A DNA stretch of 64,000 nucleotides from Chondrosia reniformis. Lineage: Eukaryota > Porifera > Demospongiae > Chondrillida > Chondrillidae. Both the position numbers and the translations under genes were made by a program. This document shows positions 24,301 to 61,000 of this stretch, piece after piece. The stretch spans positions 3,932,001-3,996,000 of the forward strand of contig OX359199.1 in NCBI GenBank assembly GCA_947172415.1. The letters are read 5' to 3'. The notes beneath the pieces were generated by a model that saw nothing but the letters and a program-made list of their open reading frames with translations, was not told the origin of the DNA and ran no database searches. Positions within the stretch are counted from its first letter, which is position 1. The number at the start of each line of letters is the position of its first letter.

Positions 24301-27300
24301 TTCTGTAATAAGAAGTGTAAATCTATTTTGGCTGAGTGGCTAGCGACACCTCCCTACGTCCTTTATGTGCGGTTTATGTGCATATGTGCATGTACAATTA
24401 TAGATGTTATGTTTAAATATTTTAAGTGCTATTCATTGTCTGTAAGTAATTGTTAAATGTAATTGGTATATTCACTTTGAAGCTATTTACTGAATCTCTC
24501 TGTATAAAATGCTTATCCATTCAGGGAGATCAACTTGTTTACATAATAAAAGGTCCAGATATTGCACCATCCTGTTCAGAGGCAACAACAAGAGTAGGTT
24601 TTAATAATCTGTGTAAAGATGGTGTTTGATATTAGACTTCTTTATTAGCATATGTACGTATGTACAGTATTAGTATATGTATTGCTTAAAAGAGTTTTAC
24701 TTTATATATACCTTCTCTAGTTGTGCTGAGACATGAGTTTATTAAATGTATTCATGAGTATTTATTTTATTACATACGTAGATGGAATATCGTCCACGAT
24801 ACAGAAATAGAGGGATTACTCAGAAAAATTTAACTGATCCAGTATTTTCACTGCTAGGTGAGTTACTTTTTTACATTAGGTTTGTGCAACTTACTCACAT
24901 CCTCGTTTTTCTGTCCTAAAGCTCGACAACCCAGTGCTATTCGAAATTTAACTATAGTATGGAATATTGACTTTTCTCAGTTCAAATTCTTTGCTAATGC
25001 TACCTTTTTGGGTCCAGAATTTCCGCAAGGAAAAATTTTGCAATATGAGTACAGGTTGAGCACTCCATTGGCTAGCATTGTTGATGATGGCTCTCTAAGT
25101 GTAAAGGTACTATAACTTGTTTATTCATCACTAGGGTCATCAAAAACCCCAGCCAGTTTGGTATGGGCTGAAGATGATTTATATGCATACCCATAATCAG
25201 TGATAGTCATGACACAATGTTTAATATTCAAGGTTTAAAAATGAACAAGTGAAAAGTAGATTTATTATGATTCAATCCCAGTACACATGCATATACAACG
25301 TACGTACATATGTATATATTAACCACCAGTGCTATCTGCCATATTCGAATCTTATGTAATTGATTATAATTACGGCAGAACTGGTTGTTCGAAAGGGTCT
25401 CTCCCATTTCCTGTGGGAATGACCATTGAATCTACACAACCACAATGTAAAGGTGTCACTGTCATCTAATAACTGCATGCATTAACAATCATAAATAAGG
25501 AAAGAATACAAGAAGTTACATCATATTATACGTATATATGTATGTTTAATTTGGTAGCCCCTTTGCTCAGTATTTTCTATTTGCTCACTGGAGTGACTAG
25601 TGTACCCAGGTTTCACATATGTTTATTTTGTGTAAACGTTTGAAGATTATCTACAGTAAATGTTTGTACACATTTGCAGGATTCTGAAGCAGACAGTGAC
25701 ATGACTCTTTTAAACGAAGTATTTGTTGAAGTAGACCTTTTTGAAGATGATCACTTCAATTTTTCAGTAAGTGTTTTACACATTTATACCTGTGTGAAGG
25801 CTTCCATGCTACACCGGTATATATTCTTCTATGGTATTGTAGTTGTTTTCCTCAAAGTTAATGTACTCTGGCAATCCTTTAAATATTCCTATTTACTTTG
25901 TATATTTCCGAGGTGATCAGTTCTGACAATTTGCCTATAATGGAATAGTAGCAGTGATTAATAGTTAACCTCAAAAATTTCAATATAGCTACAAATCTCT
26001 GTTTCATGTATATAAAGTATATACAGACATTGATATGTTTGATTGGTGTGCATACACATGACAATGCCTCCACTGTATTATTGGTGCTATATGTGTGATT
26101 GCAATTGTAGTGGTGTACATAGTCTTTTGCTTACTTCATGCGATATTTCTTCTATGTCCGATGTGTATTTGTAGGTGCGAGCTATTTCAGAATATGATGC
26201 AACAGGAGAGTGGGAGACAGTAACCATATATCCTGAATTTGTAGCTGATATCCCCAAGCAAGGTATAGTAGTCTCTTATTGTGACTGTTACATTTTGCCA
26301 AGTAATATATGATGTACTTTGATAATGGTAGGTATTACCACGTACATGTAAGGCCTTACCCATACATTATTTCACCCTTGCCCAAGCTACAGTCCCTTTC
26401 TCATATAACTAGAGTGAGGAATTTCTTTTCTCTGTCTTTCTGCAATACAGCTGAATTGCCCTTACATATTCAGGGAATTATTATTGGATGCTGTATCCTG
26501 GCTGTAGTTCTAGTGGTTCTCTTCATCTTAATAGTCACCACCAGTGGTTATTATTATTACAAGAAAAACAAAGTTGTGATTGTGAAGGTAAAAACCTGCT
26601 AGCTGATACCACCATGTGTAGTATAGCATATATTAGAATGCCACACGTGTATACTACTGTGGCGAATGGGAGTCTTTCAATATAGTACACGTACTGTGCT
26701 CAAGAGTATTATCTTTAAGTATGTCTGTGTCGATATCTTGTCGCAAGGTAGTTTTCATGCCAAGATAAGTAAATATACATATTTGAGCCGAAGCCTCACA
26801 AAGATCAAGAAGAAGACAAAGATTCTCTGGGGTCACTGATGAAGGATAGAATTCCTAGAAACAGCTGTCTGGCCCAGTGGAGAAGAAGAGAAGAAGAAAG
26901 AGAAAACTCTTATCCTTATCCAAAGCTCTCACTAGGCTTAGTTCCTTCAGGTCTTTTAGTTTTAGCATGAGTATTGGATTTTACAAATGTATATAAAAAT
27001 ATGGTTCCCTCTTTTTTCTTTTTCCTTCAAGTGGAATTTCAGCATGTGGTATTGAGTATATATGTAATCAGTAGATTATTGTTTTTTACTATCTTGCATT
27101 TATAAAGTTTGTTGACCCTTATTGTGTGTAGAATGCTGGTATTTGGTTAAATGGGCAGGCAGAGGTTGACGACGAACAGGATGGAACATTTGAGCCACTT
27201 CAGTTGGACAACTGGGAGATCTCTCCTGATCAGATTATCATGGACTGCATGCTTGGAGAAGGAGCATTTGGTGAAGTCTATAAAGGCTTGATTAAAGGAG

Positions 27301-29925: not shown

Positions 29926-29961
<36 letters not shown>

Positions 29962-34965: not shown

Positions 34966-37900
34966 CTATTGCAAAGGAACATCTGGATAAACGGATTCAA
35001 TGTTTAGGGTAGTTGGATGATGTGGTGTATCTCCTTTGGAATCTTGCGCAGAAGTGCTTTTACCATTCCTAGCACTATTTATTAATTGTGGCACACTGTC
35101 ACTTGTAATACTAGTGTCATCAGAATTTGAATTAGAGGTGGGTCTTTCAATGTTTTCCAGGTAATTTCTGTTGCTTATTTCTGAAGTATCTGGATATCCA
35201 GGCTCTTTCTCCTCAGACCCATCTGGCAGCACATCATCTTCTAACAATCCTTCTGGCTCTTCATCAATAGCTTTCATGTCATAGTAAGGCAGCATTTCAT
35301 CAACATTTAGGTCAATGTAGTTGGCATTTTGGGCATTTGATAACATTGTTTCAAAGATTTGTTGAAGTTCTGAAAATGTAGGCCTTTCATCCTGCTCCTG
35401 ACTCCAACACTTCTTCATTATGTCATACCTGTTTAGTAGTAAACAAAGTACAGCTGTCTATAAATAATAATGTGGCTGAGGAGGAAGTTACAATAAAAAT
35501 CTTTAAAGTTTCAAAACAAGATGACAAAGAACAGGAAGTAAGGCTATATGAGTTCACATTCCTATATAATCAGCATACACAGTGCCAGTTAACTGTGACA
35601 AACTTTTAGTTAGAAACTGTCTCATGGGAAACACTTGACATATATAGACCAGATTCTAATTTTTGCATTGTGTCATTCACAGCTGAATGGTGTTCATAGA
35701 CTTACACTTCCTCTGAGCAGTTTTCAGGTTTTTCCATTCTATAACCTCTGAGCAAAGTGGCAAGGAGAGCCTTGTTACCGATGGTTGGGTAAGGATGACC
35801 ACCTAAAAGGATATTAAATTTGTATAAGAATAAACTTCTTGATAAATCAATATAGGTATTACACTCCTTGGGCCTAAAACTTACCAATTGTAGTTATTTC
35901 CCAAAGAACCACACCATAGGACCACCTATTAAAGAATACATATTATGCAACACAATTTATAATTGGTTTTGAGTGAATGTGTAAAATCAATGGAAAATGC
36001 TAATTTTAAAAAGTAGTATATGGTTATAATAATGAGCAGACCTAATTGAGAATACAAACAAGTAGAGGAGCCTGACTGTCTGTGGAAACCAATAAAACTT
36101 TGACCACAATATTTTCTGTCAAGCTTCAGTGACCCCTAGTGAGGTTTTCCTTAACAATATTCATAACCCTTTATCACAACAAAGTCAGCATCAGTCAAAT
36201 TTAATAAGCAAGATAGACAAAGGAAGTATTGTCAAAGCTCTATAATATATCAATATCTTTGTTTGCCTTTAGCAAACATCAACTACAACTCACACATCAC
36301 TTTTAGTGGTAAATACTCTGTCAACTATAGACTCAATGGCCATCCAACGAAGAGGAAGTTTGCCATCTGTGGTCTTGATGTATACATCATTCTCACGAGT
36401 GAGACCAAAGTCTGATATTTTCAAAGCTTTATTCTCCCCAACTAGAATATTTCTACAGGCTAGATCTCTATGAACCATTCCCATTTCAGACAAGAATTTC
36501 TATGGAACCAAATACAATTGATTAAATCATGTTAAGCTTGATTTTGATGATCTTAAAAATGATTTAACACTTCAAAAAGTTACTTCACAGCAAAGACACC
36601 CAACCTATTACAACAACATAATGATTTTAATATCTTCCAATGAATGAATGCCCAAGTATATATATATTTCAGATATCTCAAAGTGTATACATTCATGTCC
36701 TTTATGTATGTACCTACATATGTATGCATATGCTACGTAGATGTATTTATGGTCCTCACCATTCCACTGGCAATCTGATAAGCAAAAGACACCAGGTGAA
36801 TTGGTCTGAGTTCTCCCAAAGCACTAAATGGCTTTTCATATGGAGAAGGAACCTGGCCTTGAGGTGAAGATGGACTTGAGGTTTTTTTCTCCCTTTCCCC
36901 AAGCAAAGGGCAATCAGATGCTGGTGTCATTGGAGTCATTGGAGTCATTGGAGTCACTGATGGGTTTCCTGATCCACTGTGGTTGACATATTCATTCCCT
37001 TTAGTATCCTGTACACTCTCTGGCATATTGAAATAGGAGCTGTTGTTCTACACAATGGTAAAGAGAAAACAGGGCCGATAAACTACAGCAATGTAGAGAG
37101 TCCTGTTACTGCAAGTCATCTACTCACTAGTTTGCGAACTGTTCTGAGGTAAGTTAGCAAGTCACCATGAGGAACATATTCCAGAACAAGAGCAAGTGGC
37201 TCCTGGAGTGTGCAGCAACCAACCATGTTGACCACATAGGGACAGCTACCCATGGTTATCTTCTTCATGGTAGCAATCTCCTTTAGAAAGTCACTCTTCA
37301 AAGCAGCAGAGGCTTCCTCTAAAGAATTAACAATGCGGAAATTACTCATCATTAGGAATCTGATATTTCTATTTTATTTTTTGACCTACGTACCTCTAAG
37401 TATCTTTACTGCTACAGTGAAATTATCTATCCCGCTAAAGTATTGGTTGTTGACAGCTCCTTTTATCAAGCCTTTATAGACTTCACCAAATGCTCCTTCT
37501 CCAAGCATGCAGTCCATGATAATCTGATCAGGAGAGATCTCCCAGTTGTCCAACTGAAGTGGCTCAAATGTTCCATCTTCCCCTTCAACCACTAGCCCAT
37601 CTTCCTGCTGTCCATTAAGCCAGATACCAGTATTCTAAGGAAAAGGACAGAATTTATTCTTAAAGTATACATATCCATGTTTAATTCCTGTCCATACCTT
37701 CATAATGACAACTTTGTTCTTTTTATAATAGTACAGCACAATTAAACCTATGATAACAAACAGCAACACTACAAAAAATGCTGCAAGGCCTCCAACTATT
37801 CCATAAACCCAGGTTTTAGTTTCAGGAGATTGCTCTTGCCTTTGAGGAATTAATATAGTTTCAATCAAAACTTCTCCAATAGCATCATATTCAGAAAGAG

Positions 37901-40900
37901 CCCTCAACTAACACACAAAATACATACGTACAGTTACACCTATACAGAATAGCTTACTATAACTACATTTTCAAAGTTGTCACTAACTGTTATATTCATA
38001 TGATCGTTCTCTGTGATAATTGCTCCTTTAGTTGATATACTTATCACTTCATCCATATCCTTCGCCGCAGATGTTCCCTAATAAAGAAATATGTTTACTA
38101 TTGGTAATTAGTGCACTTTGGTCTCCTCCGATACTCACTGCAACTTCAATTTTTTCATCAATAATGGCTATAGCTGATTCTGAGTTTAATACAAGAAAGT
38201 ATTGTTTAATTTTCCCTTCTGGAAAATCTGGACCTTTCCAGGAAATATTCAAATAAAATTCCACACTCTCAAAATTGAAGACTATTGAATCAACTGTCAA
38301 ATTTCTAGGTTCACTTGGCTGAAGGGCTATGGACAATGACAATATCATACTTATTTGTGTTGACTGAAAACATTGTTTTTACACATTACCTGGTATATGT
38401 ATGGGTAATGACTGGTGATTATCAAATGCAGTTCCATTATAGCGACTTAGAAGATTATACTGCAGTAAAGTAGATTTTTAGTGAAGCAAATTGATTCAGA
38501 AATTGTACTTGCACAATGCATATATACGTAGATGATAGTCTAAAACTGTTTTTACGTACCTATGTAAATAAGTGTACTTACTTTGTATGTTAGATATTCC
38601 TTCCTCATGGTATCTGGTGGAGGGATATCTTCGTATACAAGAGTATAGTCCCTGACAGATGGCTAAATATAAAGGTGAAATAGGATGGAAATTAAGGACG
38701 GTAAAATTATTACCACTTCCTTCTTCACTTACTTTAACTTTAACGTTAGTTACTGCTATGTTTTTAGGATAAAATAAGCTAATGGATGCAACAGAACCGT
38801 CAGCTTCAAGAGCAAAGCTTGGTTGCAGGCTTTCAACAAGTGCCATTGATTTCCAATGACTCTTGAAGTGATTATAAACTATTACAGTTGCTTGACCAGT
38901 CACATGGTTACGTTTCACTGCATGAGTTAGGTTTAGCTGGGGAGACCTAGAGTCTGGAACTAAAAATTGAATGTATAAGAAGAGTTTTAACTGGTATTCA
39001 TAATGTTACATATTTGAATGCTAATAAGATATGTTAAAAGACACAGCCCATGGAGGCTAATATACAAAACAACTACTGAGGCAAATATTTGGTCCTTTAG
39101 TGTGTTGGAGTTGTCCCTTAATTATTCAAAGGTGCTGTGAAAAAGTTTAATTATGTAGTAAGTATACTCAATCCTCCCTTATCCGGGCACCTTGGGACCG
39201 GGCATTGTCCATAACTCAGATGTGCCCGAAACTCAGAACACACGTATAGAGTATATATAGCCTCTATATTTGTAAAATATACAAATTAAGTAAGCTATGT
39301 CTCTGAATTTAGAAGTCAATTTCACACTTTGCTGCTGAACTTGTTAACTACTATTCATATTCTTGGGGGTTAAAAAGATTGGTAAACAGGTTTGCCTTCA
39401 AAAACGGCCATAAACAGGACATGTACGCAACTGCTGCCTTCGCAATTTTGTAACTTACTGACTCAGCAACCGCTTTTATGCTACCCGGTAGAGGGACATG
39501 CCCGTATCTGGGGTGTCCGGATAAAGGAGGATTGAGTGTATTTAAGGTTTTCTCATTTCTAAGCTAAATCGATAACCTCATACAGTTGGAAAAACCTTTC
39601 AGTATGTAACCACAGTGGCCTAATAGCAGACTCAGAATAAGTACATGTATACCTGACAACTTCAGTAGCCCCTCTCCTGAAGAGTCTACTAAAGCTGCTT
39701 AAGATAACCATTTCCTTAAAGTATTCACTATTTATGATATACGTATATAGTACTCAAAAAGCTATATAGTACTCGAAAAGGTATGCAACAATATTTTTCA
39801 TTTTTCATATACATTTAAGCCTTGATATTTGATCCATTTAATGGATCAAGTATCAAGGCTTAAATGTATATGAATGGATATGTATCATAATACATATCCA
39901 TACAAATACCTACCTTAATTGAGATGCAAATAAAAAATGTATGTATATATAAATAAACAATCTACAAAGTTCTCATAAGTACTGATCTGATGTATGTGTA
40001 AACTGACCTTCAACAGGAACATTAAACCAATTTGCAGCAGCATATTTAGTTCTTGACGATGTATCAAAATGTGGCAAAGCATACACCTTCAGAAAGACAT
40101 TATGAGAGCTATGGAGGCATAACAATGGACTTAGAGAGTGATTAACTTACTCCAATTAGGTAGTTACAGACACCTTGATCATGTATTACTGGCAAGTATT
40201 GCAGGACGTTATCGGTACCACTAACAAAGAGGTGTACTGCAGTCTGGTACAGAACAAAATAACAGTAAAATGTGAGAGTAACATCATTTGCTCCTATATA
40301 AGCCACCTTATTATGAGATTCAAAACTTTTGATTTTTATATAGGGTCTAAGACATTTATTGAAAAGACTTGGAGCAGACACTATCTGAATTCCATAGCCA
40401 GTCACATCTTCCTGATCTACAAATGCAATGAATGGGCATGTTAATTATTCATTTTAAGCTTACATTGTGTACATACATTATAAAGAAATTATGTGTATAA
40501 TACAGTGGAACCTTGCCTAGTAACCACCTTTAAGTTATAGAATTAGGACCAATCTTGCATTGTATTCAGAAAAGCTACCCCCTTGGAATTTACTTTTACT
40601 ACTGCCATTTTGGACGGATGATATGATATGAGAATGATAGAAAATTTTTAAAGCTTAGTGTTCTCATTTGTGAGGTTCCATTGTATATACAACTTCTATA
40701 AACACTAACCTGGGCTTAGGTCATCTGTCCAAACTTCAAATATTAGCTCTCCAGTTATGTTAGAAAATCTTAATTTTGCTCGAATCTCTCTTGGTGGAGT
40801 TGGTGTCCAAGTACCTATACATATACGTACAGCAGATAATGTGCATATATAACTACTGTATACGTATATGCCAATAGTATTACTTACCATAAAAACACTG

Positions 40901-42322
40901 TTGCCTTGGTGGTGAAAAAAAATTAGAGATGCCATCTTTATCAACTAAGGCATAAGACAAATTGGCACCCTTTTTACATTGCAATTCACGTATGGACAAA
41001 ATGTTGGAATTAATCCCATAAAGAGGGCTGTCTCCGGTTAAGGTCTTAGTGAAAGGTTCATGCTAAACAACAAAAGTATAAAAAAACAAGATTACTCCAT
41101 CAATTTCTGGATACCTGTTAAATAGAATGTGTACCAACTTGTGCAACATATCTTAGACTAGTTTCTTTTCCAGGAACTTCTATTTTCCAAATAATCCCAT
41201 GATTGCTGGAAATTATGGTTCCATTAGTACTTATACTCCACTTTGGTTCTAAAGCTCCTAGCCTCCAAAATGTTTTGTTATCAGAAAAATAATCCAATTC
41301 CACTGAATTGAAAGGTCTCAAACTATTCAATTTAGAAGCTGTGATGGTGACGAAGAAAGCAAGACCATTATGACTTTGGTTGCATGAATACTCCCAAGAG
41401 TATGAATATGAAGCTTACGTACAGCTCTGGTTGTAGTGGAAGGGAAAGTTATCATCTAAATCATTACATATATCTGGACAGGTTGAATTCTTGCATTCAG
41501 GCAAACAATCAGAATTAGCGGAAAGAGCTCTTTCACATGATATCTATATATGCAGGGATAGAAAGTTCATAGTCTAGAAGAGTGGATCCTACCCACAGTA
41601 CCAGAAACAATATATAGTGATTGAATGACATACCTGACAGAGTCGTGAGCAAGAGAATGGTGCACGTGCCTGCTTAATATAACACAGAGGTATACACACT
41701 AACACCTTCAAAGGAAAGCAAGAAGGGATGAAATAGGTTTCTGTGAATATATACAAAATAAATATCTATCTGGTGGAAAGAATTCCAATTATTATAATAC
41801 ATGTTTACCTTATTGTAAGATCCACATTCGTCCTCACTATATAAGTTAGGAAAAGGGCTAGTAGTGGACGTGTCATCCTGTGCACAAGGACAAGGGAACT
41901 ATACCTCGCAAAATACAGAGAAAGTCTGTGCCCTTTTGAGACAGATTGGAGAACATATACGCATTTAAGTACCAACAGTAACACATAGCACTCACTAAAA
42001 GATTGGCAAACTTTAAGCAATAGCTGTAACACCGTTCCACGGAAATGGTCTTTTGTACAGATGGTCCATCGTTCTCTCCCGATTCTAGGGTATGTCCAGT
42101 ACCAGGTGAATCATTAGAACAGTGCGTAGGAGCGTCACACTGTTTATTTGTTTCGTATCTAATAATAGCCTTGTGTAAAACGTGCGTTAGTTCTTCCGTT
42201 CGCAGACCGTCCTTATCGCAGTTAGTAAAATTGAATCTTTTAAGGTTAACACAAGAAGTACTGCTTTCAGTTGAAATCCAAACTGTCGACCATAACAGCA
42301 GAGACAGGGGCAATCTGACCAT
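34966..42322 (-). CDS. RTK-2: receptor tyrosine kinase with split kinase domain, 23 exons, 1254 aa
   Basis: Exons, high to low: 42322-41996, 41877-41809, 41705-41634, 41543-41423, 41338-41139, 41062-40888, 40814-40710, 40416-40307, 40243-40151, 40086-40008, 38959-38733, 38662-38582, 38459-38390, 38326-38139, 38077-37967, 37907-37698, 37634-37394, 37318-37128, 37047-36760, 36499-36294, 35925-35885, 35802-35706, 35428-34966; all phases close. It has a signal peptide ([12 protein letters not shown]), Cys-rich exons 1-4, fibronectin-III-like repeats ([12 protein letters not shown] at about 600) and a membrane segment at about 710-734. The kinase has [30 protein letters not shown] and WMAIES. The insert carries NEYVNHS (Tyr910) and three TPM repeats; the tail has NYIDLN, LPYYDM and GYPDTSE. 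It aligns exon by exon with RTK-1 but lacks the intron before the membrane helix. The donor after exon 5 (CAA/gttggt) is weak and was placed by homology. Introns 8 and 11 are only 63 and 70 bp. Confidence 0.85.
39167..39538. mobile_element. pogo/Tigger-like MITE in RTK-2 intron 10
   Basis: The ends are inverted (left CTCAATCCTCCCTTATCCGG, right the complement of the same with two changes) and flanked by TA. The TTATCCGG box near the end is typical of pogo/Tigger elements. The right half also survives at 46,690-46,830 in the first ectodomain copy, so the insertion is older than the duplication. Confidence 0.75.
39806..39872. repeat. 67-bp near-perfect palindrome in RTK-2 intron 10
   Basis: The arms CATATACATTTAAGCCTTGA... 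and its reverse complement meet at ATTTAAT with one mismatch. The paralogous site near 47,085 has only one arm, so the second arm arose after the duplication. Confidence 0.8.
40502..40684. mobile_element. short MITE, CAGTGGAACC-type ends
   Basis: It begins CAGTGGAACCTTGC and ends GAGGTTCCATTG, a pogo/Tigger-like terminus. The same element is present in ectodomain copy 2 (54,245-54,431) and in part in copy 1 (about 47,660-47,745). It was therefore in the ancestral receptor gene before duplication. Confidence 0.7.
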
Positions 42323-42373
42323 GTCTGATTTTTTTCTTCTAGATTTACAACTGACTTAACAGTCGTGCATTCA

Positions 42374-42403
42374 TATTTATACGCGGATGTATACATACGT
42401 CAT
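42374..42403 (-). promoter_or_regulatory. RTK-2 core promoter: TATA box and CRE-like site
   Basis: On the minus strand TATAAATA (42381-42374) lies about 52 nt before the ATG, which allows a short 5' UTR. A TGACGTA site lies just upstream (42403-42397). Ectodomain copy 2 keeps the TATA sequence (56,524-56,531); copy 1 has lost it. No transcription start is visible, so this is a prediction. Confidence 0.45.
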
Positions 42404-42839: not shown

Positions 42840-44240
42840 TTCCAGGGTGTGGGGGTCCTTCACCCCATCCCAGTATTGCAAAATGATATGGGCTGAGAGA
42901 GTGGAGAGGTTTTGCTATTTTGATTAAAGGAAATGGAATCTGAAATCTGATAGCTACGTATATTTACTCATTCTGAACTGATGGAGTGTAGCAATGGTGA
43001 AAAGAAGTTAATTAACCAACAGAAGTTGACCTGATCGTGATCTTTACACTATGTTTTGATTACTTCCAGTCCATCAATTATAATATATACCTTAATTCAA
43101 AATTTTCCCTCTCTAATTTGATAAAAAATAATAACTAGTAGGCTTCTTAGGCTTGTTTACTCTTGATAGATGAATATTTCTTGGTTTGTATTGTTTGCTT
43201 CCTCTTAATTTGGCTGTCTAACCCCTTGGGTTGCCCCTAAAGCACCTTATCATCTATTCTATATATATAAGTATGTACAATCATAAGTATACATAAGATA
43301 TAGAATAGAGTCATGTAAATGTATACAGTTTGCAAGTTACAATATATACGCATACGTGATGGTTTATTGTCAGCTATAGTATATATCTGGTTGCAGAATC
43401 TATTTATGGGAATTATTTAAATTTGAAGGTGTGTATTTATTACTTAATGTCACACTGAGTGTGATGTGTATATACTGGCGGTTGTTAAATTACTGTGCTT
43501 TTGGTTTATGATCAAATGCATAGTGAAGAAATGCATGACTTTAATTTGCCGGTTGATAATAATATTATAATAATACTAAGCTTATTATAAACATTTCTGT
43601 ACTGATTGTCACTCTAATTGTTAACTATTATATTATTATTATTATGGAGAGACCAGTACAAATCTTGAAGTTCCCATCACTGAAACTGCTATATACATCA
43701 CCCTAGCTGTTGCAATGCTACTAGATATCTGCATGTTGATACAGATAGAAACAGCCTTTACCTCAACAAAAAACATTGACATGAATCTACAGTAACAATT
43801 TTATAAATTGATTCAAGTCTTCGAATTCTTCAACCTCAATAATCCTTTTCAGAGTACATTTCCTATTTATATAATTTTAATTTTAAGTTTACTATGAGTG
43901 GGCTGAAAATTTGTAACTAGGAAATCATTAGAGCAACTCATAAATAGCCAAAGTGAACTCTTTTGAATACATTTAGTCTCTTAAACAAGTTGCCTGGCAT
44001 ACATATACATCTAATTCTATTTTTTGCATGTACATAAATGGATGAGGTAATTCAGTTAGTTATTATGATGTAACCTATTGAGAATTGAGAAAGAACAATT
44101 GCAAATACATATAATTATACTTGTTCCTACAATATATATTATATACATACATATATATAGCATGGTAAGGATCAAACCTGTAGCAAATGGTATGCATGTG
44201 TTTCACATGCAGATGTATATATATATAGATAACATATACC
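42840..44240. repeat. duplicated upstream flank of RTK-2
   Basis: The part 42,840-43,230 matches about 49,390-49,550 and 56,740-57,175. The part 43,260-44,240 matches 51,300-52,325. These segments travelled with the ectodomain half in the tandem duplication. No gene is seen here. Confidence 0.75.
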
Positions 44241-45480
44241 TGTAGGAAGTCCCAATATATAGAAGTCTGTCAGGATAAAGCCTTTTGGTCTAACAATGTC
44301 TCCAATAAAGCAGTCACAGCGGTTCATTTAGTAGAGCTCTTTAATTACCTTATTGACAACATTTATGTATGTGTAGACGGTTCTGTATTTAAGCAATGTG
44401 TAGGTATCCCTATGGGTACTGACTGTGCCCCTGTAGTTGCTAATCTTTTTCTGTTTGCCTATGAGTATGAGTTTATGAAAGGACTACTTAAGGATAACAT
44501 CACCTTAGCTATTAAATTTTCCAATACTTATAGGTATATTGATGACCTTTTATGTATTAACAACAAGGATTTTGAACTGTCAATTAGTGATATTTACTCC
44601 AAAGAATTTATTCTTAAAAAGACAAATACCAGCCCTAAAAAATCCCCCTTTTTAGACTTAGATATAACCATTACTAACAATCAATTTATCACTAAAGTAT
44701 ATGATAAGCGAGAGGACTTTAACTTTGATATAGTAAATTTCCCCCATTTAGATAGTAATATTCCTAATACCCCAGCCTATGGTGTCTTTATTTCACAACT
44801 AATTAGGTATTCCAGAATATGTAGTGACTTCTCCAGTTTTCAGGCTAAAGGTTTGCAGTTATGCAGTAGGCTTATTAAGCAGGGTTACAAATACTTTAAG
44901 CTAAAATCAACCTTTAAAACCTTCCTATCCTGGCAGCCTCTAGTTAGAATCAAGTATAAGCAAAAAGTAGCTAGTATACTTAAGGACTGTCTTGTGTTAC
45001 CCCATATTGTGTTACCCCACCTCCAAAGAAATGTTACTACTAGAAGATCTAAGGGTAGACTTACGTAATATGTCCTACTTGTGTCTATAGTTATGCTGAG
45101 TCTGTTTTACCTGTACAAGCAAGATTACTAATAGATTTATAATTAATTCATAAAAGTTAATTGGACCTACATTCCTTTCATAAAATTAAATTTCATCATG
45201 TGTCTTAGTTAACACCTTATTTAACTTTTGGCACCAAAATAGTGTATATAAGGCCCCTAGATTTAGCATAGAGAGCCAAGGATTCACAGAAGATCAAGAT
45301 AAAGAAAAAGACAAAGACTCCCAGGATCACTGACGAAGGGTGGAATTCCCAGAAACGGCTGTCTGACCCAGTGGAGAAGAAGATAAAAGAAGGAAAAAGA
45401 AGGAAGAAAAGACTCCTGTATCTTCATCTAAAGCTCTCTTTAGGTTTAGTTCCCCTATAGGCTCTTTTTACAGAATAGGC
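44241..45480 (+). mobile_element. Penelope-like retroelement fragment with reverse transcriptase and hammerhead tail
   Basis: A 218-codon open frame (44,412-45,068) encodes part of a reverse transcriptase: [15 protein letters not shown], then YRYIDDLL (the YxDD catalytic box), FLDLDITI, YDKREDFNFDIVNFP and AYGVFISQLIRYSR. The frame continues upstream without an ATG ([11 protein letters not shown]). The GIPMGTxCAP...YIDD...QLIRYSR signature, followed by a hammerhead in the non-coding 3' part, suggests a Penelope-like element. It is 5'-truncated: the N-terminal RT part is missing and no GIY-YIG domain is seen. It sits exactly at the junction between the RTK-2 flank and ectodomain copy 1. Confidence 0.65.
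45324..45369 (+). ncRNA. hammerhead ribozyme motif (minimal stem III)
   Basis: CTGACGA is at 45330-45336, stem II GGG/CCC (45338-45340 with 45348-45350), GAAAC at 45352-45356, loop GGCT and GTC at 45361-45363. Stem I is GGATCA (45324-45329) with TGACCC (45364-45369), five of six pairs. Cleavage would follow C45363. It lies downstream of the Penelope-like reverse transcriptase frame, as expected for that element class. Confidence 0.7.
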
Positions 45481-45524
45481 ATATAGCATGTAGGAAAATG
45501 GTATCCTAGATTTTTCATAAATAG

Positions 45525-48500
45525 TTAGAAATACTAACATTTAGAAAACGAAGTTAGATATAGTGATGGACATGCTCAGCGTCTGTAACAGTGGCAGGTC
45601 TGGAAAAATATTAAAACAAGACATGTACAGTTATCATATGGTATAGCTAGCCATGCACAGAACTAGCTATAGTGGAATAGTTGTCACTAACTGTTATATT
45701 CATATGATCGTTCTCTGTGATAATTGTTCCTTGAGTTGATATAGTTATCACTTCATCCATATCCTTCGTCGCAGATGTTCCCTAATAAAGAAATATGTTT
45801 ACCATTGGTAATTAGTTCACTGTACACTTTGGTCTCCTCTGATACTCACTGCAACTCATCAATAATGGCTATAGCTGATTCTGAGTTTAATACAAGAAAG
45901 TATTGTTTAATTTCCCTTCTGGAAAATCTGGACCTTTCCAGGAAATATCCAAATAAAATTCCACTCTCTCAAAATCGAAGACTATTGAATTAACTGTCAA
46001 ATTTCTAGGTTCACTTGGATGAAAGGCTATGGACAATGACAATAGCATACTTATTTGTGTTGACTGAAAAAATTGTTTTTACACTTTACCTGGTATATGT
46101 ATGGGTAATGACTGGTGATTATCAAATGCAGTTCCATTATAGCGATTTAGAAGATTATACTGCTGCAGTAAAGTAGATTTTTAGTGAAGTAAATTGATTC
46201 AGAAATTGTACTTGCACAATGCATATATACATAGATGATAGTCTAAAACTGTTTTTACGTACTTATGTAAATATGTGTACTTACTTTAAGATCCTTCCTC
46301 ATGGTATCTGGTGGAGGGATATCTTCGTATACAAGAGTATAGTCCCTGACAGATGGCTAAATATAAAGGTGAAATAGGATGGAAATTAAGGACGGTAAAA
46401 TTATTACCACTTCCTTCTTCACTTACTTTAACTTTAACGTTAAATACTTCTATGTTTTTAGGATAAAAAAGCGAATGGGTGCAACAGAACCATCAGCTTT
46501 AAGAGTAAAGGTTGGTCACAGTCCTTCAACAATTGCCATTGATTTCCAATGACTCTTGAAGTGATTATTAACTACTACAGTTGCTTGACCAGTCACATGG
46601 TTACGTTTCACTGCATGAGTTAGGTTTAGCTGGGGAGACCTAGAGTCTGGAACTAAAAATTGAATATACAAGAAGAGATTCAACTTCAAAACCGGCCATA
46701 AACAGGACATGTACACAACTGCAGCCTTCCCAAATTTGTAACTCACTGACTCAGCAACCGCTTTTATGCTACCCGGTAGAGGGACATGCCCGTATCTGGG
46801 GTGTCCGGATAAAGGAGGATTGAGTGTATTTAAGGTTTTCTCATTTCTAAGCTAAATCGATAACCTCACACAGTTGGAAAACCTTTAAGTAACCACAGAG
46901 GCCTAATAGAAGACTCAGAATAAGTACATGTATACCTGACAACTTCAGTAGCCCCTCTCCTGAAGAGTTTACTAAAGCTGTTAAAGAGATTTCCTTAAAG
47001 TATTCACTATTTATGATATACGTAGTACTCAAAAAGTTATAAAGTACTCGAAAAGGTATGCAGCAATATGTTTCTTGCACATTTAAGCCTTGATACTTTA
47101 TCCATTTAATGAAGCCAGATACATGTATGTAAGTTGTGTCAATAGTGGTGATATGTTGCACTGTATCATAATACATATACATGCAAATACCTACTCCTAC
47201 TCCCTCAATTGAGATGGAAATAAAAAATGTATGTATATATAAATAAACAATCTACAAAGTTCTCATAAGTACTGATCTGATGTATGTGTAAACTGACCTT
47301 CAACAGCAACTCTAAACCAATTTTCAGCAGCAAATTTAGTAGAAGTTCTTGACGATGTATCAAAATGTGGCAAAGCATACACCTTCAGAAAGATATTATG
47401 AGAGCTATGGCGTACCATGGTATAATAATGAACACATGCATACACTGATTAACTTACTCCAATTAGATAGTTACAGACGTACGTGTTGATCATATATTAC
47501 TGGCAAGTATTGCAGGATGTTATCGGTACCATTAACAAAGAGGTGTACTGCAGTCTGGTACAGAACAAAATTACAGTTACATGTGAGAGTAACATCATTT
47601 GCTCCTATATAAGCCATCTTATTATGAGATTCAAAGCTTTTGATTTTTATATAGGGTTTAAGACATTTTGGACGGATGATATGATATGAGAATGATAGAA
47701 AATTTTTAAAGCTTAGTGTTCATTTGTAAGGTTCCATTGTAATAATACAACTTCTATAAACACTAACCTGGGCTTAGATCATCTGTCTAAACTTTAAATA
47801 TTAGCTCTCCAGTTATGTTAGAAAATCTCAATGTTGCTCGAATCTCTCTTGGTGGAGTTGGTGTCCAAGCACCTATACATATATACAACAAATAATGTGC
47901 ATATATAACTACTGTATACGTATATATATGCCAATAGTATTACTTACCATAAAAACACTGTGGATTTGTTAGTGGAGAAAAAAATTAGAGATGCCATCTT
48001 TGTCAACTAAGGCATAAGACAATTTGGCACCTTTTTTACATTGCAATTCACGTATGGACAAAATGTTGGAATTAATCCCATAAAGAGGACTGAATCCGGT
48101 TAAAGTCTTAGTGAAAGGTTCATGCTAAACAACAAAAGTATAAAGATTACTCCATCAATTTCTGGATACCTGTTAAATAGACTGTGTACCAACTTGTGCA
48201 ACATATCTAGTGTCTTCTTTGGAACTTCTATTTTCCAAATAATCCCATGATTGCTGGAAATTATGGTAAAAGCAAGACCATTATGACTTTGGTTGCATGA
48301 ATACTCGCAAGAGTATGAATATGAAGCTTACATACAGCTCTGATTGTAGTGGAAGGGAAAGTTATCATCTAAATCACTACATATATATCTGGACAGGTTG
48401 AATTCTTGCATTCAGGCAAACAATCAGCATTAGTGGAAAGAGCTCTTTCACATGATGTCTATGCAGGGATAGAAAGTTCATAGTCTACAAGAGTGGATCC

Positions 48501-49055
48501 TACCCAGAGGGCCAGAAACAATATATAGTGATTGGATGACATACCTGACAGAGTTGTGAGCAAGATCCTGGTGCCTGCTTAGTTGCCTCATAACACAGAG
48601 GTATACACACTAGCACCTTCAAAGGAAAGTAAGAAGGGATGAAATAGGTTTCTGTGAATATATACAAAATAAATATCTATCTGGTGGTAAGAATTTCCAA
48701 TTATTATAATACATGTTTACCTTATTGTAAGATCCACATGCGTCCCCACTGTATATAAGTTAGGAAAAGGGCCAGTAGTGGACGGGTCATCCTGTGCACA
48801 AGGACAAGGGAATTAGTATACCTCGCAAAATACAGAGAAAGTCTGTGCCCTTTTGTGACAGATTGGAGAACCTACGCATTCAAGTACCAACAGTAACACA
48901 TAGCACTCACTAAAAGGTTGGCAAACTTTAAGCAATAGCTGTAACACCGTTCCACGGAAATAGTCTTCTGTACAGAAGGTCCACCGTTCTCTCCCGATGC
49001 TAGGGTATGTCCAAACTGTCGACCACAACAGCAGAGACAGGGACAATTTGACCAT
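45525..49055 (-). pseudogene. RTK-2 ectodomain copy 1 (no membrane segment, no kinase), broken
   Basis: This is a head-to-tail copy of RTK-2 exons 1-15 and their introns. The start is intact ([15 protein letters not shown] from 49,055), but exon 1 has an internal deletion that shifts the frame. Exon 5 has lost its first part. Exon 8 is cut by a deletion fusing it to the neighbouring MITE. The exon 11 counterpart has a stop soon after SHWKSMAIVEGL. Intron 10 has lost the left half of the pogo-like MITE. The copy stops at 45,525, within the sequence below the exon 15 counterpart, so no membrane helix or kinase follows. A functional secreted product is unlikely. It shares the exon 5 deletion and VVVNN-type changes with copy 2. 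Confidence 0.75.
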
Positions 49056-49559
49056 GTCTGATTTTTTCCTTCTAGATTTACAACTGACTGAACAGTCGTG
49101 TATTCATATACGCGGGCGTATATTCATGCTATATGTTGTCATGCTAGCTAATTGTTCAGTTTGGTTTAGAGCGTACTTTTTCGACCTGCGTGAAGGTCAT
49201 GATCAGTATATTCTTTTTTAGACTTTCAAAAGTCCCATCCGACATGTTAAGTTCGATGCAGTTACAAAAAATATATGGTATTTGATTTCTGACTGTAATG
49301 ATGAAGAATGTTCTTTAAATTTGTATCTTAATTGTAACTGTCATGTTGTTCGTTTATAGGGAGGTGATTAATTTAAATCATATGCTATTATATAGACTCT
49401 TCCAGGGTGTGTGGGTTATTCACCCCATTGATATCCCGGCCAGTATTGAAAAATGATATGAGCAGATAGAGTGCATGGAGAGGTTTAAATTTGCTATTTT
49501 GATAAATTCTAATTTAAAGGAAATGGAATCTAAAATCTGATAGCTACGTATCACACAAG

Positions 49560-52326: not shown

Positions 52327-54244
52327 ACAGAAATACTAACATTTAGGAAATGAAGTTAGATATAGTGATGGGCATGCTCATGATCAGTGTCTGCAACAGT
52401 AGCAGGTCTGGAAAAATATCAAAACAAGACAATGTCATGTACAGTTATCATATGGTATAGCTAGCCATGCACAGAACTAACTATAGTGGAATACTGCTGA
52501 CCCTTTTAGGACATTTCTCTTGTCTTTGAGGAATTAATATAGTTTCAATCAAAACTTCTCCAGTAGCATCATATTCAGAAAGAGCCCTCAACTAACACAC
52601 AAAATACATACATACATTTACACCTATACAGAATAGCTTACTATAATTACATTTTCAAAGTTGTCACTAACTGTTATATTCATATGATTGTTCTGTGTGA
52701 TAATTACTCCTTGAGTTGATATAGTTATCACTTCATCTATATCCTTTGCCGCAGATGTTCCCTAATAAAGAAATATGTTTACTATTGGTAATTAGTTCAC
52801 TGTACATGGTCTCCTCTGATACTCACTGCAACTTCAATTTTCTCATCAATAATGGCAGCTATAGCTGATTCTGAGTTTAATACAAGAAAGTATTGTTTAA
52901 TTTTCCCTTCTGGAAAATCTGGACCTTTCCAGGAAATATCCAAATAAAATTCCACTCTCTCAAAATCAAAGACTATTGAATTAACTGTCAAATTTCTAGG
53001 TTCACTTGGATGAAGGGCTATGGACAATGACAAAGAGCATACTTATTTGTGTTGACTGAAAAAATTGTTTTTACACATTACCTGGTATATGTATGGGTAA
53101 TGACTGGTGTTTATCAAATGCAGTTCCATTATACCGACTTAGAAGAATATACTGCAGTAAAGTAGAATTTTAGTGAAGCAAATTGATTCAGAAATTGTAC
53201 TTGCACAATGCATATATACGTAGATGATAGTCTAAAACTGTTTTTACGTACCTATGTAAATAAGTGTACTTACTTTGTATGTTAGATATTCCTTCCTCAT
53301 GGTATCTGGTGGAGGGATATCTTCGTATACAAGAGTATAGTCCCTGACAGATGGCTAAATATAAAGGTGAATAGGATGGAAATTAAGGATGGCAAAATTA
53401 TTACCACTTCCTTCTTCACTTACTTTAACTTTAACGTTAGTTACTGCTATGTTTTTAGGATAATATAAACGAATGGGTGCAACAGAACCGTCAGCTTTAC
53501 GAGCAAAGGTTGGTAGCAGGCTTGCAACAATTGCCATTGATTTCCAATGACTCGTGAAGTAATTATTAACTACTACAGTTGCTTGACCAGTCACATGGTT
53601 ACGTTTCACTGCATGAGTTAGGTTTAGCTGGGGAGACCTAGAGTCTGGAACTAATAATTGAATATACAAGAAGAGATTTAACTGGTATTCATAATGTTAC
53701 ATATTTGAATGTTAATAAGGTATGTTAAAAGACACAACTGTGTAAACTGACCTTCAATAGAAGCATTAAACCAATTTGCAGCAGCATATTTAGTTCTTGA
53801 CGATGTATCAAAATGTGGCAAAGCATACACCTTCAGAAAGACATTATAAGAGCTATGGAGGCATAACAATGGACTTAGAGAGTGATTAACTTACTCCAAT
53901 TAGGTATTTACAGACGCCTTGATCATGTATTACTGGCAAGTATTGCAGGACGTTTTCAGTACCACCAACAAAGAGGTGTACTACAGTCTGGTACAGAACA
54001 AAATAACAGTAAAATGTGAGAGTAACATCATTTGTTCCAATATAAGCCACCTTATTATGAGATTCAAAGCTTTTGATTTTTATATAGGGTCTAAGACATT
54101 TATTGAAATCACTTGGAGCAGATACTATCTGAATTCCATAGCCAGTCACATCTTCCTGATCTACAAATGCAACGAATGGGCATGTTAATTATTCATTTTA
54201 AGCTTACATTGTGTACATACATTATAAAAAAATATGTATATAAT

Positions 54245-54431
54245 ACAGTGGAACCTTGCCTAGTAACCACCTTTAAGTTATAGAATTAGGACCAATCTTG
54301 CATTGTATTCAGAAAAGCTATATACCCCCTTGAAATTAACTTTTACTACTGCCATTTTGGACAGATGATATGATATGAGAATGATAGAAAATTTTTAAAG
54401 CTTAGTGTTCTCATTTGTGAGGTTCCATTGT
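54245..54431. mobile_element. duplicated copy of the CAGTGGAACC-type MITE
   Basis: It is nearly identical to 40,502-40,684, at the same intron position of the ectodomain copy. Confidence 0.7.
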
Positions 54432-55358
54432 ATATACAACTTCTATAAACACTAACCTGGGCTTAGGTCATCTGTCCAAACTTCAAATATTAGCTCTCCA
54501 GTTATGTTAGAAAATCTTAATTTTGCTCAAATCTCTCTTGGTGGAGTTGGTGTCCAAGCACCTATACATATATACACCAGATAATGTGTATATATAACTA
54601 TATAATATATATATATATATGCCAATAGTATTACTTACCATAAAAACACTGTGGACGTAGTTGTGAAAATTTAGAAATGCCATCTTTGTCAACTAAGGCA
54701 TAAGACAAATTGGCACCTTTTTTACATTGCATTTCACGTATGGACAAAATGTTGGAATTAATCCCATAAAGAGGACTGAATCCGGTTAAAGTCTTAGTGA
54801 ATGGTTCATGCTAAACAACAAAAGTATAAAGATTACTCCATCAATTTCTGGATACCTGTTAAATAGAATTTGTACCAACTTGTGCAACATATCTGGTTCC
54901 TTTTTCAGGAACTTCTATTTTCCAAATAATCCCATGATTGCTGGAAATTATGGTAAAAGCAAGACCATTATGACTTTGGTTGCATGAATACTCGCAAGAG
55001 TATGAATATGAAGCTTACGTACAGCTCTGATTGTAGTGGAAGGGAAAGTTATCATCTAAATCACTACATATATATCTGGACAGGTTGAATTCTTGCATTC
55101 AGGCAAACAATCAGCATTAGTGGAAAGAGCTCTTTCACATGATATCTATGCAGGGTAAGAAAGTTCATAGTCTACAAGAGTGGATCCTATACCCAGAGTA
55201 CCAGAAACAATATATAGTGATTGGATGACATACCTGACAGAGTTGTGAGCAAGATCGTGGTGCCTGCTTAGTTGCCTCATAACACAGAGGTATACACATT
55301 AGCACCTTCAAAGGAAAGTAAGAAGGGATGAAATAGGTTTCTGTGAATATTATTAGAA

Positions 55359-55882
55359 CAGGCCCGTAGCCAGGGGGGGTTCGAGGGGTTCGAAAGAAAC
55401 CCCTAAAAATTTAGCTTAGTTGGGAATGGTCTCTGACTCTCGCGTATACGTACATAAAAGGTCCCTTCTCACTGAGCTACTAAGAGGCACTTATATTGGC
55501 CGAAATTTGTACTACTTGGACAAGTTAATATATTCTTCAGTTCGGTAGCGTGCGTTGTGTAAAAATGGCGAAACGTAAACCTGGGCCGGACTCGGAGACG
55601 CCGACGCTGTTGAGTTTATTCTTGACGATAGATATACGTATAGAATACTCTATATGTATGTATCTCATTATATGAGGTTTATGTATGATATATAGTCATT
55701 GCATTAACTAAGCATTGCATTTCAAGTTCCCTTAATTAAGCGATTTCATGGACAAGAATAGCTATAAAGAATTAGCTAGCTGCCTTGAAAGGTTTAAAAA
55801 AATTTCAATCACTTTACTCGCGCGCGACTGCTTTCAACATGCACAGATCAAATTTCTACTGAGAAGGCTGGCTACGGGCCTG
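55359..55882. mobile_element. hAT-like non-autonomous element with a transposase N-terminal relic
   Basis: Perfect 15-bp inverted ends (CAGGCCCGTAGCCAG) bound 524 bp that are absent from RTK-2 and copy 1 at the same intron position. Inside, ATG at 55,565 opens a short frame MAKRKPGPDSETPTLLSLF, like the basic start of many transposases of this type (MxKRK...LxSFF), and then runs out. It is therefore an internally deleted derivative. Confidence 0.75.
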
Positions 55883-57204
55883 TAATATATACAAAATAAA
55901 TATCTATCTGGTGGAAAGAATTCCAATTATTATAATACATGTTTACCTTATTGTAAGATCCACATGCGTCCTCACTGTATAAGTTAGGAAAAGGGCCAGT
56001 AGTGGACGGGTCATCCTGTGCACAAGAACAAGGGAAATACTATACCTCGCAAAATACAGAGAAAGTCTGTGCCCTTTTGTGACAGATTGGAGAACCTACG
56101 CATTTAAGTACCAACAGTAACACATAGCACTCACTAAAAGGTTGGCAAACTTTAAGCAATAGCTGTAACACCGTTCCACGGAAATGGTCTTTTGTAGAGA
56201 AGGTCCACCGTTCTCTCCCGATTCTAGGGTATGTCCAGTACCAAGTGAATCATTAGAACAGTGCGTATAATATCGTCACACTGTGTAGATGTTTCGTAAC
56301 TAGTAATACGGGCATCCTTGTCTAAAACGTGCGTTAGTTCTTCCGTTCGCAGACCGTCCTTATCGCAGTCAGTAAAATTAAGTTCTTTAATAAAGGGATG
56401 ACAAAGAGTACTGCTTTCAGTTGAAATCCAAATTGTCGACCACAACAGCAGAGACAGGGACAATTTGACCATGTCTGATTTTTTCCTTCTGGATTTACAA
56501 CTGACTGAACAGTCGTGTATTCATATTTATACGCGGACGTATACATACGTCATGCTGTATGTTGTCATGCTAATTGTTCAGTTTGGTTTAGAGCATAACT
56601 GTTTCGCAGTTACAAAAAATATATGGTATTTGATTTCTGACTGTAATGATGATGAATTGGCTTTAAATTTGTATCTTAATTGTAACTGTCATGTTGTTCG
56701 TTTATAGGGAGGTGATTAATTTAAATCATATGCTATTATATAGACTCTTCCAGGGTGTGTGGGTTATTCACCCCATTGATATCCCGGCCAGTATTGAAAA
56801 ATGATATGAACAGATGAGTGCATGGAGAGGTTTTGCTATTTTGATAAATTCTAATTTAAAGGAAATGGAATCTCGAATCTGATAGCTACGTATATTTCAT
56901 ATATATAATACTGATTCTGAACTGATGGAGTGTAGCAATGGCGAAAAGAAGTTAATTAGCCAACAGAAGTTTACCTGATCGTGATCTTTATATATGTTTT
57001 GATTACACTTCCAGTCCATTAATTATAATATACCCTAAATCATTTTTTCCCCTAATTTGATAAAAAATTGCCAAATGTTTTTCTTTAATAACTAGTGTTA
57101 GGCTTGTTTACTTTTGATGGATGAATATTTCTTGGTTTGTATTGTTTGCTTCCTCTTAATTTGGCTGTCTAACCTTACTCTGTATCTAATGAATACATAT
57201 AAGT

Positions 57205-58097: not shown

Positions 58098-61000
58098 TTA
58101 TCTTTCAATGATTTCCGGGTAGTACGTATTGCCTATTTCAGAGGTATTTTGATAACCTGTAGGCTCTTCCATACATAATTCACCTTGCATCTCAGCTAGA
58201 GCTTTGGGTTGCTGATTAAATTCTGCTACATTTGGAGAAGGAGAAAAGTCCTCAAAATTAAGATCAGTGTTACTTGCAGTCTTTGCAGTTGAAAGCACTG
58301 TATCAAAGATATTTTGAAGCTCTGAAAATGTAGGCCTTTCATCCTGTTCCTGACTCCAACATTTTATCATTATGCCATATCTACAATATTAAAGTATAAA
58401 TGATATATAAATAAACAATCAATGCCTAATTAGTGCCCAAATACAATTGCAAATTACTGACATTTCCTCTGAGCAGTTTTCAGGCTTTTCCATTCTATAA
58501 CCCTTGAGCAGTGAGGCAAGGAGAGCCTGGTTGCCGATGGCTGGGTAAGGATGACCACCTAATAGGATATTCACATATAGATATATGTTGTATATATATT
58601 TGTAGCTTAATGTGAACTATACTATTCTTCTACAGTGACATTATCATACCGTACTCTCTAAGTAGGAATGGCCCGGAAAAAAATGGCCGCCCTATTCAAT
58701 GTATTAGCAATCAACACCTCATAAATCACCAACGAAGCGATTTTCGGTTATATTCGGTTATTTGCAGCGATTAATGCACGCTTTCCTAAATGCCAAAACA
58801 TCTTTCGACGCTCTACACGCTCTATAGCGTTCAAAAAGTGGCTAACTAGGAATAGACCCACTTCCAAAAATTCATTTTTTCTTCTTCTTCTTTTATTGAA
58901 TAGACTAGCGCTAATATGCGAACTTATGCGGGCACGTACTAGTTATAAATCGTCATAAATATTTCGGAACTAGGGAATAGACAGCCCTAAATCTGAATGC
59001 GCTCTACAATAAGCATGTTAATTGTGAAGAGCGAAAATTGTGGTCTTCTCGGACGCCATTTTTTAATTAAGAGATCATGGTTTTCGGCATATTTCTCTTG
59101 TCTAAGACGTTATTTTGAGATCTTCGCCAAGAAAACTTTCAAATCAATTTAAAACAAGTAATATTAAGAGGAAAAAAGGGGGAATACAAGTAAAAAAAAT
59201 ATTTACAAAAATGATGTTAGAAGTAGTAATGGCAGTGTTCACTAATACATCTGCAAAAAGTATCGAAACAAGACACTGATTATATGATAAGGCTAATCAT
59301 ACAGAAGTTGCATATATACTGAAATTTAAGTAACTTAATCATACACTTCTGTGTTTGGGCACACCATTCCTACTTAAGGTTAGTGCGCCCAAACACAGAA
59401 GTGTATGGTTAAGTTACTTAAATTTCAGTATATATGCAACTTCTGTATGATTAGCCTTATCATATAATCAGTGTCTTGTTTCGATACTTTTTGCAGATGT
59501 ATTAGTGAACACTGCCATTACTACTTCTAACATCATTTTTGTAAATGTTTTTTATTTACTTTATATTTATATAGTGTTTAAATATATATATTTAATTTTG
59601 TTACAATCAATTACCAATTGTAGTGATTTCCCATAGAACCACACCAAATGACCACCTAAATCAAATTTATAAGAGTACATTAAGACAGTAAGTGAGTGTA
59701 TACATACTATAAAAATATGGGAGATGATAATTGCACAATGCATATGCTATACAATTAATGTAAAATCAATATGAATAATTACTGGAAAGTCAGTCAACCA
59801 AATATGACTTGGAGGTGATCAGTAGTTGCCACTATAATGGACTTTGGTAACCTATGGCTAGCTAGAATAAAATTTGCTTTGTAGCCTAGCAGTTTGTTTG
59901 GTGTAACATATACTCGTGGATATTTGTATAGATATAGTACATGTAGCATGCTTTTAAGTATGTACACAGTGATTAGAATAGCTGTGTATAATTAATGTAT
60001 ATAAGCAACTGGCAAGTTACACCAAACCAGACAAGTAACCGAGCTTGGGGACCGAAGTGCAACCAGTAATCGCCTCCTAGTCTTCAACGATGGTAAAATT
60101 CATCAATTGCAAAGAACAACAGACAGCAGTTTCGCCCTCATTTGGGCTCATCAGTGTGGTACACTTCACCAATGGTGAATTTGATGACTGTCTTCACTTA
60201 TTAATCCATTACAAGTGAAATACCGTGGTTTCATATTAAGTGAAAGTGAGGCTACATGTCTAAGCGAGACTGAGCACTCACAATGAACTAAGGAAGTTAA
60301 TTGCACTGAGCTGTGCAAAGGATATGATAAGTAAATAATTATAATAACCAGCTCAATGCAATTAACTCCCTTAGTTCATACTTTATGTATTCACCAATTA
60401 CAACTCACACATCACTTTTGGTTGTGTAAACTCTGTCAACTACAGACTCAATGGCCATCCAACGAAGAGGAAGCTTGCCATTTGTGGTCTTGATGTATAC
60501 ATCATTCTCACGAGTGAGACCAAAATCTGATATTTTCAAAGCTTTATTCTCCCCAACTAGAATATTTCTACAGGCTAGATCTCTATGAACCATTCCCATT
60601 TCAGACAAGAATTTCTAATAAAGAATAATTATTATTATGCTAAAAATGAAGACAGTATATATGAAAATGGAGACTATTAAATGAGTAAAAATGACAGCAG
60701 CACTAAATTATAGATATTTCTTTGTGAGATAATATTGCTTGAGCATCAGTAACCTGAATTTGGTAATTCTGGACATTTTGACCAGGGGTCTTCATCAGCA
60801 ATATAATGAGGGGTGGACATACAAGCCAGTTTTGACAACACCAACTGTCACACTTTTTCTATTTAATCTTGCTTGTATGTCCACGCCTGCCCTAAAACTA
60901 TATAATTAAGGAATTCTTAGCAGACCTACATGATAAGTACATTATATATAGCTAACAAGGACTTTAATAATATAATATTTATATGTAAGTTCTACTATAG

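Follow-up and report, generated by a model that had tools for sequence, protein, structure and literature searches.

The 64-kb window considered here, which covers positions 3,932,001-3,996,000 of chromosome 11 of the sponge Chondrosia reniformis, carries receptor tyrosine kinase (RTK) genes in and around which three short motifs with the core of a hammerhead ribozyme are found. By using a pattern search for CTGANGA, stem II, GAAA, a two-pair stem III and GTC, the core was detected at each of the three places named in the original prediction, namely 26,836-26,869 (+), 45,330-45,363 (+) and 60,154-60,122 (-). When these motifs are placed in the context of the whole genome (117,379,552 bases in 15 contigs), the overall interpretation that we consider likely is that of a Penelope-like element with permuted domain order, whose leader carries a minimal hammerhead and whose insertions record RNA 5' ends, together with a separate retrozyme-like repeat.

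A loose hammerhead pattern gave five matches in the window, compared with 0.22 in shuffles, and at the two additional matches (960 and 3,639) stems were not seen by eye. Genome-wide, the loose pattern yielded 3,753 matches against 1,315 in a reversed control. Because simple arithmetic on these counts predicts about 1.3 genuine copies per 64 kb, the presence of three copies in the window is unremarkable. Strict patterns divided the genome matches into family A (1,242 matches with intact core) and family B (214), with no match to either in the controls. The window motifs belong to two unrelated dispersed mobile-element families, those at 26,836 and 45,330 to family A and that at 60,122 (-) to family B; no sequence kinship was seen between the two outside the core, and the earlier view that all three follow one design was not borne out. 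The features concerned are collected in Table 1.

Table 1. Features of the window that bear on the hammerhead motifs, in window coordinates.
Feature	Position	Strand	Remarks
Hammerhead-like motif, family A	26830..26875	+	Predicted cleavage between 26,869 and 26,870; stem I GGGTCA/TGGCCC fully paired, one G.U
Hammerhead-like motif, family A	45324..45369	+	Predicted cleavage between 45,363 and 45,364 (element bases 88 and 89); A.C mismatch in stem I; A.A at stem II foot
Type I hammerhead motif, family B	60116..60160	-	Predicted cleavage between 60,122 and 60,121; one C.U mismatch in stem I; RF00163, 26.7 bits
5'-truncated Penelope-like element	44235..45518	+	C-terminal reverse transcriptase part of frame at 44,235-45,068 (translation); terminal repeat ending in TTTTTCAT
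TATATAAGG of terminal repeat	45245..45253	+	31 nt before common 5' end of short copies; presumed promoter role
243-nt leader piece	45276..45518	+	From presumed transcription start to 3' insertion end; makes up short dispersed copies
Old decayed short copy, family A	26785..26998 (ends approximate, by eye)	+	RTK-1 intron, between transmembrane exon and GEGAFGEV exon
Decayed family B copy with inverted head	59990..60381 (ends approximate)	-	Sense in RTK-D intron; by eye
Kinase exon upstream of 60,122 copy (RTK-D)	60408..60614	-	Pfam PF07714, 87.9 bits

Two of the motifs lie sense in RTK introns, as originally proposed, and the flanking exons fit this placement. The 26,836 copy is located between the transmembrane exon (recognized by eye) and the GEGAFGEV exon of RTK-1, the latter matching the kinase profile at 19.4 bits, under its cutoff of 23.1, while the 60,122 copy is located between the kinase exon and the WSFGVVLWE exon (the latter by eye) of RTK-D. 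Enrichment near RTK genes was considered and rejected, since the motif density equals that of the genome, and the RTK setting looks incidental. Competition of putative self-cleavage with splicing, which had been raised for both copies, is in our view minor, because the motifs are ordinary dispersed repeats, minimal Penelope hammerheads have been reported to act as dimers (PMC7761336), and the Anolis Penelope hammerhead is described as cleaving only with protein (PMC11167929).

Judged from its sequence, family A is the 5' leader, or pseudo-long terminal repeat (pLTR), of a young Penelope-like element in which a GIY-YIG endonuclease stands N-terminal to the reverse transcriptase (RT), that is, a permuted element of Naiad type. 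Its anatomy can be read directly in the intact element L089, where an open frame of 997 amino acids (aa) lies between two pLTR copies and hammerheads occur at 301 and 3,802, with a period of 3,501. RT matches spaced at 3,501 bp or close to it, as on chromosomes 5 and 7, reveal head-to-tail units, so that the arrangement by which Penelope hammerheads are recognized, a pLTR location within a tandemly repeated element, is found here; this placement was established for family A only. In the frame, GIY-YIG is located at aa 126-159 (23.6 bits, over a cutoff of 22.6, when the N-terminal third is scanned, and 21.9 when the frame is scanned as a whole), RT motifs read by eye at aa 695-866, accompanied by weak profile matches, and a CxC at about aa 419 (PEPCECHKS, aa 416) between the two. 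A CxC motif between these domains is a mark of the Naiad-type clade, and the order GIY-YIG before RT in one frame is likewise of this type, the RT part being recognized by weak profiles and motifs by eye. Among 150 RT matches in the genome, the best other copies are 97-98% identical (149 of 1,022 candidates were scored); a strict hammerhead is present in 18 and TAGATTTTTCAT in 19 of 20 RT loci, and TAGATTTTTCAT leads into the next unit in L077 and L083. Within the window, the truncated element at 44,235-45,518 matches L089 at 98.7% identity over 1,284 nt, and 26,801-26,945 does so at 79.9% (blastn). The original attribution to Penelope-like elements of the minimal type consequently holds for the 26,830 and 45,324 copies, which derive from the leader of an element with the 997-aa frame, but not for the 60,160 copy, which lies in a retrozyme-like tandem repeat. 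No relatives of the family A element were confirmed in viral contigs, and no relevant solved structure was found.

Exact genome matches numbered 319 for the promoter part, 34 for the leader-to-frame junction and 1,837 for the 3' half of the leader, counts that give rough shares since the three patterns differ in length; leader-only copies clearly prevail in the genome. The classes of short copies were observed in an alignment of 32 sequences, comprising 30 chromosome 1 loci (the first listed with the strict hammerhead pattern) and two window copies, whose common part spans about 243 nt; in the reference L014, the hammerhead occupies bases 55-88. Half of them (16 of 32, including L037 and L038, neighbours in one array) start within -3 to +10 of the leader start, eight extend at least 29 nt further upstream (six of these hold TATATAAGG), and eight start later, seven at 11-25, a group whose late starts may come solely from BLAST ending its alignments early where copies have diverged. 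At the other end, 25 of the 32 extend to base 243, where TTTTTCAT ends, a point that lies 243 nt from the leader start and 129 nt before the ATG. As a separate observation, L037 and L038 are situated inside a tandem array that is spaced at about 1.1-1.2 kb and contains sub-repeats of 68 bp.

For the predicted cleavage site between element bases 88 and 89, copy starts were surveyed in the first 100 listed 3' halves of the leader, all on chromosome 1, with a strict hammerhead upstream in 49 and absent in 51. Eleven of the 51 hammerhead-less copies were inspected in an exploratory manner: L095 starts exactly at 89, L104 at 87, L094 near 92 and L100 at about 103, five reach the leader start or come within 4 nt of it, and L099 keeps older upstream sequence. 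The eleventh, L096, joins leader base 17 to 89 by a deletion, as if reverse transcription had jumped from a cut end to the 5' fragment. Nested-pattern genome counts N(93), N(89), N(85) and N(81) were 2,152, 1,789, 1,466 and 1,237, and chromosome 1 places at each step were classified individually. Among the 15 places of the step from 89 to 85, seven starts fall exactly between 88 and 89 with non-homologous sequence upstream (L095, L105, L106, L107, L112, L114 and L116), one is the 17-to-89 deletion of L096, one is a start near 70 (L115) and six are mutants. The step from 85 to 81 (18 of 19 places classified) contains starts at 82, about 84 and 87, one internal deletion and 14 mutants, and that from 93 to 89 (13 places, eight of them known from 12 letters only) contains starts at 90 and 92/93 (two with identical letters) and 10 mutants.

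The resulting chromosome 1 tally is seven starts at 89 versus five or six at the other eleven positions (82-93), or up to seven if L094 is included, an excess that is seen with both leader variants (TGGCC and TGACC). With an equal chance assumed for each of the twelve positions, the binomial P is 1.5e-5 to 5.7e-5 for all starts (7 of 12 to 14) and 1.1e-4 to 3.4e-4 when L095, known already from the exploratory sample, is left out (6 of 11 to 13). Up to 7.53 Mb, five starts at 89 stand against four or five elsewhere (P 0.0004-0.0007). Expressed as a share, the start coincides with the predicted scissile bond in 7 of the 100 listed copies on chromosome 1 in which the post-cut sequence is kept. 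Insertion ends at this site, which corresponds to 45,363/45,364 in the window, suggest real cleavage. From the excess at 89 we therefore infer that the family A hammerhead probably cut its RNA in vivo and that the cut RNA was inserted, with the ribozyme as the cause of these ends. The fuller proposition, that a sponge Naiad-type element cuts its own leader in vivo by a hammerhead with an Rfam-unrecognised stem II and that the cut RNA is inserted, is in our view moderately probable.

Several points weigh against this reading. The survey covers part of chromosome 1, along which the three step lists reach unequally far (8.21, 9.75 and 7.53 Mb), and the genome-wide step losses (16.9%, 18.1% and 15.6%) show no clear step at 89. 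The nested counts alone are indecisive on 89, because point mutations dominate the losses, and were rejected as sole evidence, the losses being alike at each step. ATG or CATG is frequent at the ends of family A insertion sites; the 3' flank was read in three of the seven 89-start copies, leaving four without it; the target duplication of L114 is short (3-4 nt); that of L112 is ambiguous, being either TATG (start at 89) or TATGTG (start at 91); and CATG flanks L094, whose start is near 92. When 89 or 91 is allowed, P rises to 0.001 to 0.004, or 0.005 to 0.013 without L095. With regard to structure, the stem II foot of family A is A.A where the Rfam consensus has G-C, no match to the Rfam hammerhead models was obtained in nine family A loci even at E<=10, and with RNAfold a hammerhead fold was absent for 45,324 and L089, as well as for the whole 60,160 motif. 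The RT profile matches of the family A frame were all under the curated cutoffs, and a Pfam scan of the C-terminal 646 aa of L089 gave no match. In PMC11167929, the Anolis Penelope hammerhead is described as dispensable for insertion in vitro, with no RNA-seq ends seen at its site.

The flanks supply the strongest competing explanation, in which micro-homology joining operates without any ribozyme: the TG of the target would match the element TG at 89-90 and pull truncations near 91 to a single spot. TG is frequent at target ends, so that a copy starting at 91 could pass for one starting at 89, as the two readings of L112 illustrate, and the CATG before L094 is of the kind that this process needs. 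The target duplications of L095 (CATATA) and L114, on the other hand, end before the TG and leave it to the element, and no start at 91 with a non-TG flank occurred among the 13 places of the step from 93 to 89, so that we regard micro-homology as an unlikely source of the excess.

A second alternative attributes the 89 ends to RNA 5' ends of other origin, such as a second transcription start or a cut by a cellular endonuclease. It can draw on the 32 aligned copies, half of which seem to be shaped by RNA 5' ends at the first start, but no TATA-like box is visible by eye 30 nt before 89, the site had been predicted from hammerhead rules before any copy end was known, and its match with the bond after GUC would be accidental; we consider this explanation improbable.

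The structural evidence bears on a third alternative, namely that the motifs are dead fossils, hammerhead-like words in repeats that never cleave. The original prediction had claimed that stem I pairing is kept while the sequence changes. Among its six pairs at 26,830 one is G.U, mismatches are present at 45,324 (also in L089, the young variant) and at 60,160, and no double compensatory change between 26,830 and 45,324 was found when the pairs were read by eye; covariation of stem I was rejected on this basis. Variability of alignment columns as a sign of selection on the hammerhead was also dropped, as most of the 45 distinct clustered copies had been picked by the hammerhead pattern. The covariance-model check proposed at the outset went against the prediction, with no match at gathering score in an Rfam scan of the window and a single sub-cutoff match (60,116-60,160, RF00163, 26.7 bits versus a cutoff of 34). 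As regards membership in hammerhead type I, the core is present at all three places, and every window copy stays below the gathering score. None of three family A loci reached the cutoff in a further scan, and the Rfam hammerhead models were rejected as a description of this family for want of a match. RNAfold gave a hammerhead-like fold for 26,830 (z -0.98). Sub-threshold Rfam scores and poor folding of family A are what fossils would produce; the 89 ends, the family B relatives above cutoff and the 1,242 strict family A matches with intact core, against none in the control, speak to the contrary, and the fossil explanation appears very unlikely. As for motifs arising by chance and unrelated to mobile elements, only the additional matches at 960 and 3,639 look so, and the 1,242 and 214 strict genome matches, with zero in the controls, together with the conserved element ends, already refute this explanation for the three motifs and make its probability negligible.

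With respect to cleavage by an individual motif, minimal Penelope hammerheads have been reported to act as dimers (PMC7761336, PMC6155905). In family A, self-complementarity is seen in ACAGCUGU, which surrounds stem III of 26,836, and, with G.U pairs, in ACGGCUGU of the young variant, and two hammerheads could therefore pair. Such pairing, deduced from these letters, would agree with the reported dimer mode, and full transcripts would carry two copies.

The pathway that we propose for family A may be outlined as follows. The transcript would start about 31 nt after a TATA box and carry the minimal hammerhead. Reverse transcription presumably begins at TTTTTCAT inside the RNA and would run to the RNA 5' end; an internal start is proposed because insertions usually end at the fixed TTTTTCAT, as in the Anolis Penelope element, for which reverse transcription is described as starting inside the RNA and insertions as ending there (PMC11167929). 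The 243-bp short copies would arise from an uncut 5' end, the 3.5-kb units from reading through a neighbouring tandem unit, and 155-bp copies starting at base 89 from a leader that the hammerhead had cut.

Family B is a retrozyme-like repeat of its own, in which the hammerhead is of the canonical type I. Its units of 359-362 bp are arranged in tandem arrays (four units each in L090 and L091), and a canonical type I hammerhead was detected above the Rfam cutoff in all nine relatives scanned (17 matches, 34.6-41.6 bits). Inverted heads and a 13-nt target duplication, TTGTTATAACTTG, were found, the duplication being read in L091 only. Tandem units within the 150-450 bp range, a type I hammerhead and a target duplication are thus combined in this family, as in retrozymes. 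Short copies start about 8 nt before CTGA and about 41 nt after TTTATAA. In terms of the L091 unit, such copies (L040, L041, L058 and L059) start at 320-323, right before the hammerhead at 330 (region with the TATA-like box, 280-330), and the layout of start, ribozyme and end is the same as in family A.

Other repeats are also present in the window. A second, older Penelope RT fragment occupies 60,872-61,785 (+), with a protein 44-50% identical to the L089 frame over two longer pieces, and contains none of the five loose hammerhead matches of the window. An inverted repeat at 59,194-59,553 has 171-nt arms that are 98% complementary and an 18-nt spacer, and additional foldbacks are located at 39,803-39,875 and 42,430-42,507; our guess is that all three are miniature inverted-repeat transposable elements. 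Three direct repeats about 7 kb apart (37,800-42,400, 45,600-49,500 and 52,500-56,800) contain receptor-ectodomain-like open frames on the minus strand, and a search for kinase motifs between 37.6 and 60.4 kb found none.

Among Penelope-like elements with an N-terminal endonuclease, Naiad and Chlamys, treated by Craig et al. in 2021, are said to be without canonical hammerheads. Family A shares with them the domain order GIY-YIG, CxC and RT, the pLTR and tandem insertions, and differs in its hammerhead-like leader. Penelope hammerheads as such are known; permuted elements are not known to carry them. Keyword searches of one literature collection, limited to those words, returned no report of hammerhead ribozymes in sponges (Porifera) or of Naiad Penelope-like elements with a hammerhead. 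If the present reading is true, hammerheads extend to sponges and to a permuted Penelope clade reportedly without them.

Comparison with better-documented systems places the two families differently. Family B agrees with the non-LTR retrozymes of animals, as they are characterized in PMC7229834, in its tandem units of about 360 bp, type I hammerhead, target duplication and co-existing Penelope-like element, and differs from them in its sponge host and in arrays with Penelope-style inverted heads. Hammerheads in the pLTRs of Penelope-like elements have been described before (Cervera and de la Pena 2014; PMC7761336; Poseidon of Anolis, PMC11167929), and their role is referred to as unknown in PMC7761336. 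Family A resembles these in having a type I hammerhead of the minimal kind, whose stem III is very short, in its pLTR location, in its tandem units and in insertions that end at a site inside the RNA close to the frame start; unlike the Penelope elements known to carry hammerheads, as presented in these sources, its endonuclease precedes the RT. The predicted family A cut lies 285 nt before the ATG, whereas the Poseidon hammerhead overlaps the frame start (PMC11167929). The ends of insertions preserve RNA ends in a genome over the long term, and if the excess at 89 holds genome-wide, it could be tested on public assemblies whether such ribozymes are active in animals and at what step. In contrast to the Anolis element as reported in PMC11167929, the 5' ends of family A insertions seem to record the predicted cut, which, if true, would constitute a genomic footprint of Penelope hammerhead activity.

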